A DNA stretch of 64,000 nt from Phascolarctobacterium faecium DSM 14760 (GTDB lineage Bacteria > Bacillota > Negativicutes > Acidaminococcales > Acidaminococcaceae): assembly GCF_003269275.1 (NCBI RefSeq), contig NZ_QLTS01000002.1, positions 1 through 64,000 of the forward strand, read 5' to 3'. Positions 45,660 through 56,082 of the stretch are shown here, piece after piece; within the stretch, counting starts at the first letter, position 1; every line of letters starts with the position of its first letter. The translations under genes and the position numbers were made by a program. A model generated the notes under the pieces. It ran no database searches. It was not told the origin of the DNA and worked only from the letters and a program-made list of their open reading frames with translations.

Positions 45660-47954
45660 TTATTTTTTCAAAACGGTAACGTAATATTTACCATTTTCTA
45701 CTTCTACGCCATGGGAATCATGTTCAAAAGCAGGGAATTGTCTGTCAAAGCCTTCTAAGGCTTTCAGATAACCAAGTGCAGGGCCATCGGCAGGACCGGC
45801 ATTTTCACCAGGCATGATCAGCGGAATTCCAGGCGGATAAGGAACAATACCTGTAGCTAAGGTACGCTCAGCAACACCGTCAAGATCTACTTTTTCAACA
45901 TTATCAAGCACCAGTTGTTCATAAGCTGCCGCCGGGCTCATATCAGGATGCGGCAATACAGCGAAACCTTCGGACATAAATTCTGTCGTTTTGAGCTCTT
46001 TCATTGCTGCAAACATTTCCTCGCACAAGTCGCGCAGGCCCATACCTGCATAACGCTGCGGAGCTGCTTTAACAACATCAGGCAATACTTCTTCCAAAGC
46101 AGTGTTGTTGTCATAGTCTTCTTTAAATTTGATCAAGGTATCGATCAAAGTGCCCCATTTACCTTTAGTAATACCGATAGAAAACAGCATCAGAACAGTA
46201 AAGTCAGTTGTCTTCTCAGGAATGATGCCATTGGCAGTAAGATAAGCGGACAAAATGGAAGCAGGTACGCCCATTTTACCCAACCCGTCAGGGCCGATGC
46301 CCGGAGTGGTGATAGATACTTTGATCGGGTCTAACATGCAGTATCCGTCTTCGATATCACCGAAGCCGTGCCATGCGTCATTAGGATGCAGGACCCAGCA
46401 TTCCGGTTCGGTAGCCAGGTATTCGGGATTGGCCAAACGAAAAGCAATTTTCTTGCCTTCAGCGTCTTTAACAAAATCAGGCTGCCAGCAGTTAAAGAAC
46501 CATTCGCCCTGATTGGCAAAGTCTGCATTCAGTTTTGCCATCAATTGACGGAAGGCTACTGCTTCATGGATCGATTCGTCAGTCAGAGCTTTACCGCCTT
46601 TACCATCCATCATTGCTGCTGTGATATCGTTAGAAGCAATAATCGGATAGTTCGGGGAGGTAGATGCCTGCATCATAAAGGATTCATTAAAACGGCTGTG
46701 ATCGACATTCTTTTTACCTTCACGGATATGAATGAAGGAAGCCTGAGAAAGAGCAGCCAGTAATTTATGGGTGGATTGAGTTGCAAAAACCGTCATATCA
46801 GTTGGTTTGTGGTCGGCAGGATTGCCGTACATGGCAAAGCGGTCTTTATAAATAGGATTGAAGCGGGCATAGCCATACCATGCTTCGTCAAAATGCATGC
46901 GGTCAACGCTTTGTCCAAGTAATTCTTCAACACGACGGGCATTGTAACACAAACCATCATAGGTGGAGTTGGTAACGATTGCATGTACAGGAGTAGAATC
47001 TATATCTTTAGTAATCAAGGAGTTTTCAGAAATAGTTTTCTTGATTGCTTCAGCCTGCAAAGCTTGCGGCGGAATAGGGCCGATAATACCGTAGAAGTTA
47101 CGCAGCGGCATCATATAGTTAGGGATAGCGCCGCTCATGGTCATCGCCTGTTCTATGGATTTATGGCAGTTACGGTCACACAATGCAACCTGATTATGAG
47201 TTACGCAAGCCATAAAGATTACTCTGTTAGAGGTAGAAGAACCGTTGGTAACATGATAGGTACGATGAGCGCCGAATACTTTAGCGGCATATTTTTCACT
47301 GGCACCGATCGGTCCGGAATGATCAAGCAAAGAACCAAGCTCGCCGACAGAGATCGATAAATCGCTGCGGAACAGATTTTCGCCAAAGAAATCAAAATAA
47401 GCACGTCCTGCAGGTGCTTTCATAAAAGCAGTACCACCGGTATGACCCGGAGTATGCCAGGAATATTCATGCACCTGAGAGAATTTAGCCAAAGCCTTAA
47501 ACATCGGCGGCAGCAGATTTTTCAAATAAGTATCAATCGCTGCTTCGATACGGCCGGCAATAAAGTTAGCAGTATCTTCATACAACCAGATGAAGTCACT
47601 GGTTTCTTTCAATACTTCCAGAGGAATATCAGCAACGTCGGCACGATCTGCAAATAAAAATACAGGTACGTTTTCGGCACGGCTGCGTAGTTTGTTTAAA
47701 ACATCTTTAGCAGCCTGATGTGTATTGTCTTCTGCCAGATCCCAGTCCAGAAGTATTGCTTGGATCATCGGGTCAGCGACAATCATCATTTCGGCATCGA
47801 ATGCTGTTGTAGCGGTGAGCACTTCAATTTCATGTTCTCCTAAAACATTACTCAGTTTATCGAGAGCACTTTCATCCAGGGTATTATGATCGCAAAGGTC
47901 ATGTACCAACAAAATTCTTTTGCCTTTTGTTTTGGAAATAATCATTTTTTTCAC
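45660..47954 (-). CDS. adiA: acid-inducible arginine decarboxylase, AdiA type
   Basis: PLP enzyme that converts arginine to agmatine and uses up a cytoplasmic proton. 764 residues, as for E. coli AdiA (756). An N-terminal receiver-like wing domain (1-140) precedes the large aspartate-aminotransferase-fold domain; the PLP lysine is in ATQSTHKLLAALSQAS. Alignment by eye with AdiA is continuous (EYSWHTPGHTGG, LHFDEAWYGYARFNPIY-like, GITKGKWGTLIDTL, VIPYPPGIP-like). Lysine or ornithine specificity cannot be fully excluded, but the AdiC-like partner 15 bases upstream favours arginine. Confidence 0.88.
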   Translation of the reverse strand: MKKMIISKTKGKRILLVHDLCDHNTLDESALDKLSNVLGEHEIEVLTATTAFDAEMMIVADPMIQAILLDWDLAEDNTHQAAKDVLNKLRSRAENVPVFLFADRADVADIPLEVLKETSDFIWLYEDTANFIAGRIEAAIDTYLKNLLPPMFKALAKFSQVHEYSWHTPGHTGGTAFMKAPAGRAYFDFFGENLFRSDLSISVGELGSLLDHSGPIGASEKYAAKVFGAHRTYHVTNGSSTSNRVIFMACVTHNQVALCDRNCHKSIEQAMTMSGAIPNYMMPLRNFYGIIGPIPPQALQAEAIKKTISENSLITKDIDSTPVHAIVTNSTYDGLCYNARRVEELLGQSVDRMHFDEAWYGYARFNPIYKDRFAMYGNPADHKPTDMTVFATQSTHKLLAALSQASFIHIREGKKNVDHSRFNESFMMQASTSPNYPIIASNDITAAMMDGKGGKALTDESIHEAVAFRQLMAKLNADFANQGEWFFNCWQPDFVKDAEGKKIAFRLANPEYLATEPECWVLHPNDAWHGFGDIEDGYCMLDPIKVSITTPGIGPDGLGKMGVPASILSAYLTANGIIPEKTTDFTVLMLFSIGITKGKWGTLIDTLIKFKEDYDNNTALEEVLPDVVKAAPQRYAGMGLRDLCEEMFAAMKELKTTEFMSEGFAVLPHPDMSPAAAYEQLVLDNVEKVDLDGVAERTLATGIVPYPPGIPLIMPGENAGPADGPALGYLKALEGFDRQFPAFEHDSHGVEVENGKYYVTVLKK

Positions 47955-47969
47955 TCCTTAATTAATTTT

Positions 47970-49490
47970 TTAGTTATCTATGCTAACAGATTGAGTAGTA
48001 GTAGAACCTACCTTATCCGGAGCTTGTGTAGTAGTCGTTATGTTAGTACGATGTTTGAGTTCCATATTTTTATCGATACCGACAGAGTACCAGAACGTAC
48101 CGACCAAGGTAAGGATCGTAATAGCCAGGGAAGTGTAACGAACCCATCTCGGCGAGAATCCGCCAGGAGTTTCGTGCAGCTCTTCCAGCTCATGTTTTCT
48201 GGTAACAGCGCCGGAGAAGAATACGATCGTAGCGATAACGAAGATCAGTGACCACCGTGTCTGGTTACCATTGGATGTTACAAGTGCAGCCATACTGTAG
48301 ACAGCTGCTATCAAACCGATGATACATGATTTATTGTAATCTTTCGGTGATAACTTTCCATAACCTAAAACCTTGATAGAAATACTGGAATAAATATAAG
48401 GCAGTAAAGTCAGGATAACGGCTATTGATGCGATCTTACCAAATTGCTGACTGGCAGAAGGCGACATGGTTGCCAAAACCTGTATTGTCATGATACCAGC
48501 AACAATAGCCAAGCCTGCAGAAGGCACGCCTTTAGAGTTGGTACGGGCAAAAACATTACCGAACAAACCGTCATCAGCAGCAGCTTTAGCACTTTGTCCA
48601 ACCAGCAGCGTCCAGCCTGCCAGCGAACCCAGGCAGCCTAAAGCCGCACAGATAGCTACGCCGTTACCAGCGATTTCACCGAAGGCCAGTCTTGCGGCAT
48701 CAGCAAAAGGTGCCGATGAATTTGCAAGTGCATGGTTCGGAATCATGCCCATAATAACAGAAGAACTTAAAACATAGCAGACAGCGGCTAAAATTACACC
48801 ACCAATAGTTGCAATTGGAACATTCTTTTTAGGATTTTTAACAACGCCGGCAGATACAGAAGCACTCTCGACGCCAATAAAAGCCCACAAAGTAAAGTTC
48901 AATGTCATACCAATAGCACTGACAGTGCTTTTACCCGTTACGTTCCATGCATCCATGTAGGTTTTGCCGTCAAACCAGAACCAGCCTAAGATTGCGGTAC
49001 CGATAATAGGAATCAATGCCAGAGTAGTGGTTACTGATTGAATACGCCCGACCAGTTTAGGGCCGATCATATTAGCGTAAGCAAACAGCCAGATAACGCA
49101 GATCTGCGCCAGAGCAAAAGCAAATGGATTTTTTAAAGCCGGGAAAAAACTGATCAGATAACCGATACCTACAACTGCCAGACCAACGTTACCGATAACA
49201 TTTGCCAGCCAGTAAATGAGGTTTGTCTGATACCCCATATAATCGCCGAAGGCTTGACGCGTATAAGCGTAAGGACCGCCGGCAGCAGGATCAATAGAAG
49301 ATAACTTTGCAAATGTAAGTGCCAGAGCAATAGCACCTATACAGGTAACTATCCAGCCAAATACTGCAACGCCTCCTATTGCCGCCAAATTCGCAGGCAA
49401 CATAAATACGCCGGAACCCATCATATTACCGGCAACCATCAATGTTGCAGCAACGACACCTATTTTATTACTGTTGTCGTCTTGATTCAT
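47970..49490 (-). CDS. adiC: arginine/agmatine antiporter, AdiC type
   Basis: APC-fold antiporter exchanging external arginine for internal agmatine. 506 residues, 12 helices. The AdiC substrate-site pieces are present: GNMMGSGVFMLPANLA, TLWAFIGVESASV (Trp and Glu), and GSLAGWTLLVGQ with the gating Trp. Unlike E. coli AdiC (445 residues) it has a C-terminal tail of about 60 residues that ends Thr-rich (TTTTQAPDKVGSTTTQS). GAAAGGAGAGG precedes the ATG. With adiA it forms a complete arginine-dependent acid-resistance pair. Confidence 0.88.
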   Translation of the reverse strand: MNQDDNSNKIGVVAATLMVAGNMMGSGVFMLPANLAAIGGVAVFGWIVTCIGAIALALTFAKLSSIDPAAGGPYAYTRQAFGDYMGYQTNLIYWLANVIGNVGLAVVGIGYLISFFPALKNPFAFALAQICVIWLFAYANMIGPKLVGRIQSVTTTLALIPIIGTAILGWFWFDGKTYMDAWNVTGKSTVSAIGMTLNFTLWAFIGVESASVSAGVVKNPKKNVPIATIGGVILAAVCYVLSSSVIMGMIPNHALANSSAPFADAARLAFGEIAGNGVAICAALGCLGSLAGWTLLVGQSAKAAADDGLFGNVFARTNSKGVPSAGLAIVAGIMTIQVLATMSPSASQQFGKIASIAVILTLLPYIYSSISIKVLGYGKLSPKDYNKSCIIGLIAAVYSMAALVTSNGNQTRWSLIFVIATIVFFSGAVTRKHELEELHETPGGFSPRWVRYTSLAITILTLVGTFWYSVGIDKNMELKHRTNITTTTQAPDKVGSTTTQSVSIDN

Positions 49491-50708: not shown

Positions 50709-52820
50709 TTACTCTTTACTGTCTTTGCTGTACATGGGCCGCAGTCTTACTTCCATCGGAATTTTATCAGCAGCGGCCGCCAAAAGCGCTTCCTCATATA
50801 AGGAGCTCTGAGCGCTTACAGGCGTTGCTTTATTGGTGACACGTCTGTAGGTCCCGTTAGACTGCATCATATGCGCACCGACATTATCCCGCAGATACAA
50901 GTCAAGAATCTCTTTGATACGCTTAATATGCTCTTCGCTCTCGACCGGGAAAAACAGTTCCACACGATCATTGAGATTTCTGGGCATCCAATCGGCACTG
51001 GACAGATACAGCTGCTGTTCTCCGCCGTTAGCAAACCAGAAGATGCGGCTATGCTCCAGTTGCCTGCCTACAATACTGCGAACAGTGATGTTTTCGCTGA
51101 TACCTTCCACTCCTGCCCGCAATCCGCAAATACCGCGTACAATCAATTCTACCTGTACGCCTCCGATCGAAGCTTCATATAATTTTTGAATGACCTGCTG
51201 ATCGATCAAAGAATTCATTTTTACAATGATGTGTCCCTTGTTGCCAGCTTTGACCTGCGCTATTTCATTATCAATAAGCTCATAAATTTTATCGCGCAGC
51301 CCTAAAGGCGCCATTACCAGTTTATTCCATAATGGCGGCTGCGAATAACCTGACAGCAGATTAAAAAACGCCGAGGCGTCGCTGCCGAACTGATCGTTAG
51401 CGGTTAAAAGTCCCATATCTGTATACAGCTTGGCTGTATTGTCGTTATAATTGCCAGTGCCAAGATGAACATAACGTTTAATGCCATCGGCTTCCTTACG
51501 TACGATAAGAATGATCTTAGCATGAGTTTTCAGTCCTACAAGTCCGTAAATAACATGGCATCCGGCTTGTTCCAGACGTCTGGCCCAGATAATATTATTT
51601 TCTTCATCAAACCGTGCCTTAAGCTCTACTAATACCGTGACCTGCTTTCCATTCTCAGCAGCACGCGCCAGTGCGGCTACGATAGGTGAATTACCGCTGA
51701 CACGGTATAAAGTCTGCTTAATCGCCAGAACCTTGGGGTCTGAGGCGGCATCACTAACCAGCTTTACAACAGGATCAAAGCTTTCATAGGGATGGTGCAG
51801 TAAAATATCTTTTTTCCTGATAGCGCTAAATAAATCGCTGTCATCCGGCAATTCTAAAGGACGCTGCGGCACAAAAGGCTCATAGAGCCACGGCCACATA
51901 CCAGACAGACTGGCAAATTTAAAGAAACAGGTCGCATCAAGCGGTCCGTTAATTTCAAAAATTTCCTGTTCTGATAAATCAAGATTGTTACTGAGGAATT
52001 TTTTGATACGCAGATTAGCTGTTTTATTTAATTCCAAACGCACTGCTGCGCCGCGTTTTCGTTTACGCAGAGATTTCTCTACTTCCTTCAGCAAATTATC
52101 TATATCGTCTTCATCAACGTCAAGATCAGAGTCACGCGTAAGTCTAAACGGCACTACATCCAAAATTTGGCAGCCGTTAAAAAGATCATGGCAATTTTCA
52201 ATGATAATATCTTCCAAAAATACAAAGGTCCGCTTGCCTTCACCCTCTACCTCGACGAGCCGCGGCAATACTGAAGGGACCTGTACCAAACCCATGCTTT
52301 GCTCTTCGTCCTGATTAATGATCTCTACCGCCAAATTCAGTGTCTTATTCGCCAAAAACGGAAACGGTCTGGAAGCATCAACAGCCATAGGCGTCAAAAC
52401 CGGATAAACAACCTCACGGTAATATTCATCCAGCCAGCCGCGTCCTTTTTCACTGATCTTACTTACACGGCAGATCCTGATACCATTACTTTCCAGCTCT
52501 TTAAGAATCGACAGCATATATTTATACTGGAGCTTGACCTGTTCATGCGCAGAAGCGCTGATTTCATCCAATTGTTCCTTGACTGTAAGTCCGGAAGCAT
52601 CGCGCTGATTGATTCCATCTTCCCACTTATCCCATAGTCCGGCCACACGCACCATAAAAAATTCATCCAGATTAGACGCGGTAATCGCAACAAACTTCAA
52701 GCGTTCCAGCAGCGGCGTCGTTTTGACTGCAGCTTCCTTCAGTACGCGCAGATTAAATTTCAGCCAACTCAATTCACGGTTAAAAAAATATTCAGGTTTG
52801 TTCAAATCTATGCTTTTCAT
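50709..52820 (-). CDS. ppk: polyphosphate kinase 1
   Basis: Reversibly builds polyphosphate from ATP. 703 residues, standard PPK1 with N, head, C1 and C2 domains. It opens FFNRELSWLKFNLRVLKEA; the autophosphorylated His is in GLKTHAKIILIVR; the second active-site region is HSRIFWFANGGEQQLYLSS. Its ATG directly follows the TAG of the upstream Ppx/GppA-like gene, so both are translated as a coupled pair. Confidence 0.97.
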   Translation of the reverse strand: MKSIDLNKPEYFFNRELSWLKFNLRVLKEAAVKTTPLLERLKFVAITASNLDEFFMVRVAGLWDKWEDGINQRDASGLTVKEQLDEISASAHEQVKLQYKYMLSILKELESNGIRICRVSKISEKGRGWLDEYYREVVYPVLTPMAVDASRPFPFLANKTLNLAVEIINQDEEQSMGLVQVPSVLPRLVEVEGEGKRTFVFLEDIIIENCHDLFNGCQILDVVPFRLTRDSDLDVDEDDIDNLLKEVEKSLRKRKRGAAVRLELNKTANLRIKKFLSNNLDLSEQEIFEINGPLDATCFFKFASLSGMWPWLYEPFVPQRPLELPDDSDLFSAIRKKDILLHHPYESFDPVVKLVSDAASDPKVLAIKQTLYRVSGNSPIVAALARAAENGKQVTVLVELKARFDEENNIIWARRLEQAGCHVIYGLVGLKTHAKIILIVRKEADGIKRYVHLGTGNYNDNTAKLYTDMGLLTANDQFGSDASAFFNLLSGYSQPPLWNKLVMAPLGLRDKIYELIDNEIAQVKAGNKGHIIVKMNSLIDQQVIQKLYEASIGGVQVELIVRGICGLRAGVEGISENITVRSIVGRQLEHSRIFWFANGGEQQLYLSSADWMPRNLNDRVELFFPVESEEHIKRIKEILDLYLRDNVGAHMMQSNGTYRRVTNKATPVSAQSSLYEEALLAAAADKIPMEVRLRPMYSKDSKE

Positions 52821-54368
52821 CTATTCACTCACCCGTTCTAAAATTGCTTTCAAGCCGTAAACTTCTTCAAAAAATGTCGCTTTACCAGCGAAAGTCCATT
52901 CTTCCAAAGTCAAATCGACCTTGCTTTTAGCTTCAATTAACATCGTCCCATCTTTAATGCTGACTTTGCAAAATTTGATTTTCTGCTGATAACTGCGGTC
53001 CATCGCATCAGCTAGACGCACTAAGGCAGCTATTTTCGCTACTAACGGCGTCAGTTCTTTTTCCATTTCCGGGCTGCCGGCCTTGTTTTCAAAGAGCTGA
53101 TTGGCATGGTAATAGCTTGCCAGCGCCACGATTTTTTTATCATTATCACTGAACCCTAAAATGTCCGTTGACATAATAAGCTTATAGGTATAAAGCGAAT
53201 GACTGCGCATCGAAATATATTTACCGATATCATGCAGCAGCGCCGTAGCCTGCACTAAAGTGCGGCAGTGCTCATCCATACCATGGCTTTTACTTAATTT
53301 ATCAAACATTGCCAGCGCCAGCCGTTCTACCTGTTTGGCGTGCTTAACGTCATAATTATAATGTTCGCCGATATTATGGATCAGGCTTAATTGCTCTTTT
53401 TCAAGCTCGGCAGCATACTCTTTATCTGTCTTCGGTCCTATATGCAGCAGCTGAATACCATCGATAAAACGATCGGCGGTAATAATTATCTCTTTTGTCG
53501 GCACTAAAGCCAGCAGCTGTTCATATAAAAGAATCGTCGGCAGTACTAATTCTGCCACACTTTCCTTTATCTTGAATACCTTTATGATCTGCGGCAGATT
53601 TAGTTTGTGGACCTTATTAAAAAGTTCCATAAACTCCTCGGCTTTAATCCTTGTTACCTTAGCCTGAGTATCCAGTCCCAACATCTGTAAAAGCAGTTCG
53701 GTTTCCGTACCGGAAAGGATCAAATAGCGGATATTGGCATCCTTCAGAGCTTCACGCACAGGCCCCATCGTACTAGCCAGAAACTCTGTCAGCGCCAGAT
53801 TGAACTGCATACCATTACGCTGATTACGGTTAAAACTTTCTTTAATCCTGATGATGCCTACATGAAAATTCTGCTGATATTTAATTTTTTCATCATCAAC
53901 AAAAGTGATGCCCAACCCACCCGAAGAAATATCCATCAGCAGCATACCATAATCTTTGCCGTTAATGCCTTCACTGCGCAAAGTCTGCCTAATCGCCGTA
54001 TACTTCGTATAAATTTCCTGTGGCATATCAACAACTTTTACTTTCAAACCAGTTTTGATATAAATCTGATCCAGCAAAAACACCTGGTTCAACGCTTCAC
54101 GCACAGCGGTCGTTGCCTGCACACTGCATTCTTCCACACCATATTCGGACATCAGGCGTTTGTAGCCCTGCAGCAGTTCACAGATTTCGCTGACCATACT
54201 GAAAGGGATAATTTTATTTTTAAAAGTTTCTTCGCCCAATTTGACTCTGTGGTTACATTGTTCGATTACTTTTACCTTATTCATATTGCGGTATTCAACT
54301 ATTTGCATGCTGATCATCTCTGATCCGAGATGTATCGCGGCAAAGGTTGTATAGCTTTTCTTTTTCAC
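52821..54368 (-). CDS. divergent Ppx/GppA-family protein with HD-like domain
   Basis: About 515 residues. The Ppx/GppA ASKHA fold (1-300) is recognisable, but its two phosphate loops are altered: the usual DxGSNSxR is HLGSEMIS and DxGGGSxE is DISSGGLGI, losing the conserved Glu. The catalytic-type Glu in MPQEIYTKY is kept. The C-terminal HD-like domain (about 310-510) retains ALLHDIGKYISMRSH. It may be a weak phosphatase or a sensor/regulator of Ppk. The start is the GTG at 54368, seven bases after AGGAGG; the TTG at 54374 is too close. Confidence 0.85.
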   Translation of the reverse strand: MKKKSYTTFAAIHLGSEMISMQIVEYRNMNKVKVIEQCNHRVKLGEETFKNKIIPFSMVSEICELLQGYKRLMSEYGVEECSVQATTAVREALNQVFLLDQIYIKTGLKVKVVDMPQEIYTKYTAIRQTLRSEGINGKDYGMLLMDISSGGLGITFVDDEKIKYQQNFHVGIIRIKESFNRNQRNGMQFNLALTEFLASTMGPVREALKDANIRYLILSGTETELLLQMLGLDTQAKVTRIKAEEFMELFNKVHKLNLPQIIKVFKIKESVAELVLPTILLYEQLLALVPTKEIIITADRFIDGIQLLHIGPKTDKEYAAELEKEQLSLIHNIGEHYNYDVKHAKQVERLALAMFDKLSKSHGMDEHCRTLVQATALLHDIGKYISMRSHSLYTYKLIMSTDILGFSDNDKKIVALASYYHANQLFENKAGSPEMEKELTPLVAKIAALVRLADAMDRSYQQKIKFCKVSIKDGTMLIEAKSKVDLTLEEWTFAGKATFFEEVYGLKAILERVSE

Positions 54369-54436
54369 AAACAAACCTCCTCTATTTTATATTAAATTCG
54401 ACATCAGACCTCTAAATCCTTGCACAAACGTTACTT

Positions 54437-54464
54437 TTTACAATTTTTTACGTAAAATTTTACA
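54437..54464 (+). promoter_or_regulatory. TTTACA-type direct repeats between the two ppx genes, PhoP-box-like
   Basis: TTTACA (54437), TTTACG (54447) and TTTACA (54459) recur at 10 and 12 bases, average one helical turn; a further ATTACG is at 54476. Firmicute PhoP boxes are TTAACA/TTTACA-like repeats every 11 bases. It lies upstream of a TATAAAAT-like -10 region (about 54510) for the plus-strand ppx. AT-rich context; treat as a candidate. Confidence 0.4.
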
Positions 54465-54564
54465 AAATCACTTAAATTACGCAGGATTTTTTTAATCTGT
54501 GAGTAATATATAAAATATATCTTTTTAATCGAGGAACGTTTTCTATTTACTGGGAGTGAAAAAT

Positions 54565-56082
54565 ATGCAGCGTATCGCAATCATCGATATCGGTTCTAAC
54601 TCAGCCCGTCTTGTAATCAGCCATATTTATAAAAATGGCGCTTACAACATGGTTTATAATCAAAAAGAAGCATTGCGGCTCAGTCAGAAGCTTGATAAAA
54701 CCGGTCGTTTAACAGAAGAAGCTTTCGCTTCAACCCTGGAAACGATGAAAAGCTTCGCTTATATGTGCCGGCTTTATAATGCCGACAAAACCATTGCCGT
54801 GGCTACAGCCGCTATCCGCTCAGCTCCAAACGGCCCTGAACTGACGCGTCTTGTAGAAGCAGAAACAGGTATTACCCTGCATATCATTACAGGTAATACC
54901 GAGGCCTACATCAGTTATCTGGGCGTTATCAATACGCTGCCGGTTAAAGATGGTATTATCTTTGACCTGGGCGGCGGCAGTACCGAATTGATCCTCTTTA
55001 AAAACAGGCAGATCGTTGAGTCTGTTTCTCTGCCCTTCGGCGCAGTAAACACTACCGATATGTTCAATACACGCGGTACTATGTCACCTAATGTTTACAG
55101 CGATATGAGCTTTTTCCTGCTCAGCCGTCTTTCACAGCATCCCTGGCTCAAACAAAACAGACTGCCGCTTATAGGCGTCGGCGGTACGGCGCGTACCCTT
55201 GGCAAAATGCAGCAGAAGCGCAGTAAATACCCGTCTTCAAAAATCCATAACTACAAATTTTCAGCACAGGCTTTCCATGATATTTTCAGCCAGCTGCGCA
55301 GCACAACTTTAGAACAGCGCCGTAAAATAGCCGGCCTCAGCAGCGAACGTGCCGATATTATTTTAGCCGGTGCCGGTATCATTAATTGTTTACTGGAAAC
55401 AACCGGTTGTAAACAAATGATCATTTCCGGCTGCGGTTTACGTGAAGGATTATTTTTCGATTACTATTCCAAATCCGAAAATATGCCCCTGATCGCGCCC
55501 GATATCCTGGATCGCAGTACGCAGAATATTTTAACTCTCTATACCCCTGACACTACGCACAGCAAACATATCACCGAGCTTGCACTGACTATGTTTGACG
55601 CCTGGAAAGATTTACATAAGCTGGACAAGGATTATCGAAAGCTGCTGAAAACAGCGGCTCTGCTGCATGATATCGGTATCACCATCAACTTCTACAGCCA
55701 CGCCCGGCACAGTGCGTATATGATCCAAAACGCTCAGATTTTTGGGCTTTCACATCGTGAACAGCTGATAACTTCCGCTATCGCCGGCTGGCATAACGGC
55801 ATCTCCAAAAATTATTTTCGGGATCGAAACTACAAAGAATTGTTAAACGAAAATCACTGGCAGGCTATCAATAAATTATCTTTATTGCTGGCGCTTGCGG
55901 AAAGCCTTGATTATTCACAAACCAATCAGATACGCGGCATTCAGCCACGTATCGAAAAAAAACATGCTGTACTGACATTACATGCCGAAGGTATACCCAG
56001 CATCGAGATGCATCAGATCAAACAGCATATCCGTTGGTTTGCCAAAGTTTTCGGTGTCGAGCTCAGCGTGCAGCTGGGATAA
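54565..56082 (+). CDS. ppx: exopolyphosphatase / GppA-type phosphatase
   Basis: 505 residues from the ATG at 54565 (GGGAG eight bases upstream; a GTG at 54556 overlaps the ribosome site). Canonical motifs: AIIDIGSNSARLVI, the catalytic Glu in TGNTEAYISYLG, DLGGGSTELILF and GVGGTART. The C-terminal HD-like domain has AALLHDIGITINFYSH. It should remove terminal phosphate from polyphosphate or hydrolyse pppGpp. Divergent from the degenerate paralogue coupled to ppk. Confidence 0.93.
   Translation: MQRIAIIDIGSNSARLVISHIYKNGAYNMVYNQKEALRLSQKLDKTGRLTEEAFASTLETMKSFAYMCRLYNADKTIAVATAAIRSAPNGPELTRLVEAETGITLHIITGNTEAYISYLGVINTLPVKDGIIFDLGGGSTELILFKNRQIVESVSLPFGAVNTTDMFNTRGTMSPNVYSDMSFFLLSRLSQHPWLKQNRLPLIGVGGTARTLGKMQQKRSKYPSSKIHNYKFSAQAFHDIFSQLRSTTLEQRRKIAGLSSERADIILAGAGIINCLLETTGCKQMIISGCGLREGLFFDYYSKSENMPLIAPDILDRSTQNILTLYTPDTTHSKHITELALTMFDAWKDLHKLDKDYRKLLKTAALLHDIGITINFYSHARHSAYMIQNAQIFGLSHREQLITSAIAGWHNGISKNYFRDRNYKELLNENHWQAINKLSLLLALAESLDYSQTNQIRGIQPRIEKKHAVLTLHAEGIPSIEMHQIKQHIRWFAKVFGVELSVQLG

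Follow-up and report, generated by a model that had tools for sequence, protein, structure and literature searches.

A catalytically altered Ppx/GppA-fold protein encoded directly upstream of polyphosphate kinase in Phascolarctobacterium faecium is a probable partner of Ppk1

Phascolarctobacterium faecium DSM 14760 carries, immediately upstream of ppk1, a gene here called ppx2, whose product is probably a non-catalytic, Ppx/GppA-fold partner of the polyphosphate kinase Ppk1 that is needed for polyphosphate (polyP) synthesis or stimulates it. From the comparative analysis we give this reading a probability of roughly 0.7; the most probable role of Ppx2 is to assist the polyP-making enzyme and not to destroy polyP. 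In the proposed mechanism, Ppx2 would be produced from the same operon as Ppk1, immediately ahead of it and in step with it. The catalytically dead protein would bind to Ppk1, with the C-terminal tail probably providing part of the contact, and would promote polyP synthesis, as homology with the Lacticaseibacillus Ppx1 suggests, with degradation assigned to the divergently encoded canonical Ppx. Coordinates refer to the window, that is, the whole analysed stretch of 64,000 nucleotides, in which the locus is organised as follows:

52821..54374, minus strand: Ppx2 open reading frame, Ppx/GppA family, Lactobacillaceae-Ppx1 type ("Cluster II"), catalytic residues altered; 517 aa from TTG
50709..52820, minus strand: ppk1, polyphosphate kinase; the catalytic residues checked are all intact, and its ATG directly follows the Ppx2 stop
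54556..56082, plus strand: ppx1, canonical exopolyphosphatase, divergent; the ATG at 54565 is probably the true start
54375..54555, strand not applicable: intergenic region that separates ppx1 from the oppositely oriented ppx2-ppk genes

The likely start of ppx2 is the GTG at 54368, which is better placed behind a GGAGG site than the TTG and gives a product of 515 aa; this matches the boundary of the initial annotation. Ppx2 is a full-length, four-domain protein of the Ppx/GppA fold, with Pfam scores above the curated cut-offs for PF02541 (74.1 bits, cut-off 27) and PF21447 (69.6 bits, cut-off 27.3). The canonical neighbour ppx1 scores 197 and 87 bits, respectively, and the genome contains no PF02541 gene other than these two. 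An AlphaFold model of Ppx2 built with 53 orthologues as input reached a pLDDT of 92.9 and a pTM of 0.90. Foldseek matched it to Ppx/GppA entries at E values of 1e-22 to 1e-24, with both the actin-like and the HD-like fold present. Its best structural matches, along the entire length, were solved Ppx and GppA structures, with VIA Z of 28-32 (3mdq: Z 31.9, rmsd 2.9, 300 aligned), in line with the earlier proposal that the paralogue keeps the Ppx fold.

The stop codon of ppx2 (TAG, 52823-52821) is followed at 52820 by the ATG of ppk1, a gap of 0 nt, so the stop-to-start arrangement described previously is exact. Every catalytic position of E. coli Ppk that was checked is kept in the window Ppk, including H435, H454, D470, and E623. 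The divergent ppx1 is fully canonical, as had also been described, with the intact loops DIGSNSAR and DLGGGSTE. A promoter scan of 54375..54555 found no promoter-like match above chance. Elsewhere in the window (45660-49490, minus strand), a gene resembling pyridoxal-type basic amino acid decarboxylases adjoins an amino acid antiporter-like gene; inspection of the translations suggests a likeness to an acid-resistance pair.

The active-site pocket of Ppx2 includes the following positions, and neither canonical loop, DxGSNS or DxGGGSxE, is intact:

54309..54332, minus strand: altered phosphate loop 1, HLGSEMIS, residues 15-22; the Mg-ligand Asp is replaced by His15
54015..54017, minus strand: Glu120, kept at the catalytic-base position, where it matches E121 of E. 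coli Ppx and E114 of the D. radiodurans enzyme
53910..53933, minus strand: altered phosphate loop 2, DISSGGLG, residues 148-155; Asp148 is kept and the catalytic Glu is replaced by Gly155

Aligned with D. radiodurans Ppx, loop 1 shows the changes D7 to H15, N11 to E19, S12 to M20, and H14 to S22, and loop 2 the changes G139 to S151, S141 to G153, and E143 to G155. E114, D136, and R86 of the same enzyme are retained as E120, D148, and R92, which correspond to E121, D143, and R93 of E. coli Ppx. The alignment register is correct, since the E. coli positions obtained (E121, D143, E150) are the published catalytic residues (quoted in PMC5417653). The initial annotation regarded both loops as lost; the sequences HLGSEMIS and DISSGGLGI are as it gave them, and are better described as swapped for another conserved motif, while the catalytic-type Glu that it considered kept is Glu120. 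Compared with the canonical long Ppx of E. coli, D. radiodurans, and the window ppx1, Ppx2 therefore has the same fold and domain order and retains the site Glu, Asp, and Arg, whereas the Mg-ligand Asp, the loop-2 catalytic Glu, and the polyP-binding basic residues are replaced. In D. radiodurans Ppx, kcat/Km falls from 2.28 in the wild type to 0.05 in D7A and 0.04 in E143A, a drop of about 50-fold for each single Ala substitution (PMC11234463). Judging from the alignment, polyphosphatase activity of Ppx2 by the known mechanism is unlikely, because the counterparts of both D7 and E143 are changed.

The closest functional precedent comes from the Lactobacillaceae, where the gene order is ppx1-ppk1-ppx2 and Ppx1 lacks the catalytic residues (PMC12248826, a 2025 review of lactic acid bacteria). 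In Lc. paracasei, an in-frame deletion of ppx1 abolished polyP accumulation, which was restored in trans, according to the summary of Corrales et al. 2024 in that review. A tree of Bacillota Ppx1 reported in the review places Lactobacillaceae, Clostridia, and Negativicutes proteins in a Cluster II of suggested Ppk1 activators. The mode of action of Lactobacillus Ppx1 on Ppk1 is stated there as unknown (PMC12248826). The idea of Ppk activation is thus not new: the literature already puts it forward for a cluster with Negativicutes proteins among its members (PMC12248826).

For comparison, the Ppx1 proteins of Lactobacillus intestinalis and L. amylolyticus were taken from annotated plasmid records, in both of which the gene adjoins ppk. 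L. intestinalis Ppx1 matched the window Ppx2 (E value 4e-52) more strongly than it matched the canonical ppx1 next to it (8e-21). In a tree of 52 rows, the window Ppx2, both Lactobacillus Ppx1 proteins, Acetoanaerobium, and other Bacillota formed one clade (21 rows, support 100/100) separate from all canonical Ppx. The stem of this clade is long (1.59) and its rows are fast-evolving, and part of the support could therefore come from long-branch attraction; nevertheless, the common synteny and the common tail argue that the clade is real. Our reading of Ppx2 as a Ppk1 activator derives from its membership in this clade together with Lactobacillus Ppx1, whose Lacticaseibacillus relative is reported to be dead and required for polyP accumulation. 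Like Ppx2, Ppx1 of the Lactobacillaceae (Lacticaseibacillus paracasei BL23 in Corrales et al. 2024) is a long four-domain Ppx encoded directly upstream of ppk1, with replaced catalytic residues, the C-terminal tail signature, and a place in the 100/100 clade. However, identity is only about 25%, and Lactobacillus Ppx1 lacks the counterparts of Glu120, Asp148, and Arg92, all three of which are retained in the window protein. The active Ppx also differs, being a short protein (the lactobacillar Ppx2) encoded downstream of ppk in lactobacilli and a long, divergently encoded one in the window.

The former active-site residues vary by lineage within the clade: the corresponding pocket reads Y, I, S, N in Lactobacillus and Y, E, Y, G in a genome of family f96, and the pairing with ppk is still kept. 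A third pocket variant (YIASSD, AYIGTGSLG) was observed in the Ppx2-type protein of genome G489 (L216:5268-6833, minus strand), in which HDIGK is intact and the clade tail is present. Two Negativicutes genomes of family f15, G113 and G133, encode a Lactobacillus-like Ppx1 upstream of ppk (L080:5017-6537 and L081:5051-6571) that groups with Lactobacillus Ppx1 at 100/100. L080 has an additional Ppx after ppk, in the style of lactobacilli; the grouping and this arrangement suggest horizontal transfer.

Throughout the Negativicutes, the replacement motif HxG[ST] plus D[IV][ST]SGGxG is fixed in Ppx2. Among 85 Negativicutes sequences, His15 was found in 80, Ser151 in 84, Gly155 in 81, and Glu120 and Asp148 in 83 each; of 72 sequences of the adjacent canonical ppx, all or almost all retain the classical residues. 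Such recurrence, in at least 80 of the 85 orthologues, indicates that the loop changes are not due to chance, and answers the motif comparison across the Negativicutes proposed in the initial annotation. The dN/dS of Ppx2 between close pairs is 0-0.11, not above the canonical ppx value. At the sequence level, Ppx2 is a case of motif replacement under purifying selection and not of decay, and a decaying gene or pseudogene is rejected in view of these dN/dS values and the conserved replacement motifs. The related notion of a decaying paralogue retained solely for the translation of ppk would fit the stop-to-start coupling and one genome in which a large internal ppx2 deletion leaves the start codon and the tail. 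It is nonetheless hardly credible, given the full-length frames across the class, the low dN/dS, and the confident fold. In genome G478, a stop codon divides the ppx2-type gene into two frames (L196:4745-6325, plus strand), which is either a sequencing error or a true break.

Another reading, close to the idea of the initial annotation and compatible with a Ppk1 partner, is that the rebuilt pocket (His15, Glu120, Lys124, Asp148, Ser151, Arg92) binds a nucleotide, a metal, or an alarmone and signals to Ppk. We consider this possible, though somewhat doubtful. Within the Negativicutes the pocket positions are conserved like an active site: in 53 sequences, E120, D148, and S151 are invariant, and H15, R92, K124, and G155 are conserved in at least 90%. 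In addition, signalling by yeast Rtg2 requires the equivalents of E121 and D143 (PMC5417653). Rtg2, likened here by description, is a Ppx/GppA family member that acts in signalling and, like Ppx2, has a changed loop-2 Glu (to Gln in Rtg2) (PMC5417653); however, it is eukaryotic, its partner is Mks1, and it has no link to a polyphosphate kinase. Against a sensor stand the wholly different pockets of the Lactobacillus and f96 members, which nonetheless keep the pairing with ppk, and the loss of basic residues. The residues that hold polyP in D. radiodurans Ppx (H14, K35, R271, R302) correspond in Ppx2 to S22, N41, V273, and I304, at positions that are variable among orthologues. This loss disfavours the earlier suggestion of a polyphosphate sensor, and binding of polyP in the canonical tunnel is likewise not favoured.

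The HD-like domain reported previously was found at these coordinates, with metal ligands that vary within the family:

52998..53342, minus strand: HD-like domain of Ppx2, residues 345-459

The window protein possesses the ligands H345, H381, and D382 and the motif HDIGK. Together with the kept Glu120, Asp148, and Arg92, which make residual or new catalysis possible, they would allow Ppx2 to be an active enzyme of altered chemistry, acting in the actin-like pocket (a His-Glu-Asp metal site) or in the HD domain. We regard this as unlikely: the loop residues essential to canonical Ppx are changed, the relatives in Lactobacillus have no catalytic residues left, and several orthologue lineages, namely those of Veillonella, Megasphaera, and the Acidaminococcus type, have lost the HD ligands. 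An HD-domain enzyme is for this last reason not favoured as the conserved function of Ppx2. Rv1026 of M. tuberculosis is a further family member in which exopolyphosphatase activity was undetectable in one study (PMC3411833); it differs from Ppx2 in keeping the conserved catalytic residues, in having ATPase activity, and in being a short form for which only the N-terminal portion of the E. coli enzyme can be aligned. Free-standing HD-like plus C-terminal parts of Ppx were observed downstream of canonical ppx at L206:4794-5645 and L193:2572-3156 (both minus strand), and the latter adjoins a complete ppx2-ppk pair.

The reading of Ppx2 as a partner of Ppk1 is consistent with the distribution of the two genes. 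A clear Ppx2 orthologue was present in 129 of 200 genomes of the class, and ppk in 127 of these 129, compared with 31 of the 71 genomes lacking ppx2 (Fisher p ~3e-20, phylogeny ignored). In the two ppx2-bearing genomes without ppk, either the assembly is not complete or the orthologue lies close to the end of its contig. In 67 of 74 loci, no more than 30 nt lie between the Ppx2 stop and the ppk start. Canonical ppx, ppx2, and ppk are grouped at nearly all loci examined, including those of Acidaminococcaceae, Sporomusa relatives, Veillonella, Megasphaera, and others; in Veillonella-type loci, canonical ppx is co-oriented with ppx2-ppk and not divergent. The earlier suggestion that the protein controls Ppk and is not a phosphatase is thus strengthened in part by the motif replacement, the coupling to ppk, the co-occurrence, and, through homology, the clade with Lactobacillus Ppx1.

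The adjacent, mostly divergent canonical ppx of the Negativicutes loci and the dimeric nature of Ppx proteins (PMC11234463) would also suit a Ppx2 that forms heterodimers with canonical Ppx, as its partner or dominant-negative subunit, and does not act on Ppk. We hold this to be quite improbable, as the link of ppx2 to ppk is tighter than that to ppx1, and in two genomes outside the Negativicutes (G416, G339) the ppx2-type gene is the sole PF02541 gene, and abuts or nearly abuts ppk. Ppk1 does not always depend on Ppx2, since ppx2 is missing from about 20 genomes of the class that carry a close ppk1; in the examined ones, ppk and the canonical ppx are divergently oriented. No other Ppx2 was found in the ppk1-bearing, ppx2-less genomes; scores were bimodal (clade at least 566 bits, others at most 249). 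Five loci (L085, L086, L087, L088, and L089) have ppk and a divergent canonical ppx with ppx2 naturally absent, and are useful controls.

The part of Ppx2 that may contact Ppk1 is the tail:

52824..53036, minus strand: C-terminal tail of Ppx2, residues 447-517, with the clade signature Lys465, Trp493, and Phe495

Each of the three signature residues occurs in 19 of the 21 rows of the clade and is absent from all 30 rows outside. Genome G278 has, ahead of ppk, a reading frame of only about 90 aa (L199:6699-6974, plus strand), in which the tail directly follows the first residues and which ends just before ppk. The rest of ppx2, about 420 residues, has been removed by an internal deletion that left the start codon and may have arisen between the short similar stretches MKIA and LKIA. 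Over 66 aa, the G278 tail shares 67% identity with the full-length Ppx2-type protein of its relative G489, compared with 71% for ppk and 77% for canonical ppx between the same genomes. This nearly tail-only frame points to the tail as the portion of Ppx2 that is important to Ppk; it is a lead only, since a single genome shows it and the deletion could be recent. No tail-only Ppx2 was found in the other f96 genomes, two of which carry the full-length gene, while the rest gave no match. More speculatively, and more likely wrong than right, the tail of about 75 residues could be the Ppk1-activating element across the clade, and the His15/Glu120/Asp148/SSGG pocket of the Negativicutes a ligand-sensing switch of polyP synthesis. 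New here are the tail signature confined to the clade and the mostly-tail version in one genome.

Genes of the Ppx2 clade are likely annotated as exopolyphosphatase, as both Lactobacillus records are, which is the opposite of their likely role. The misnaming would span the Negativicutes, including the gut genera Phascolarctobacterium, Acidaminococcus, Veillonella, and Megasphaera. Lineages with ppk1 in which the partner is absent, such as G120 and G172 (the genus code that includes Megasphaera), provide natural controls. The signature residues and the frame reduced to the tail offer a small piece that lends itself to direct testing.
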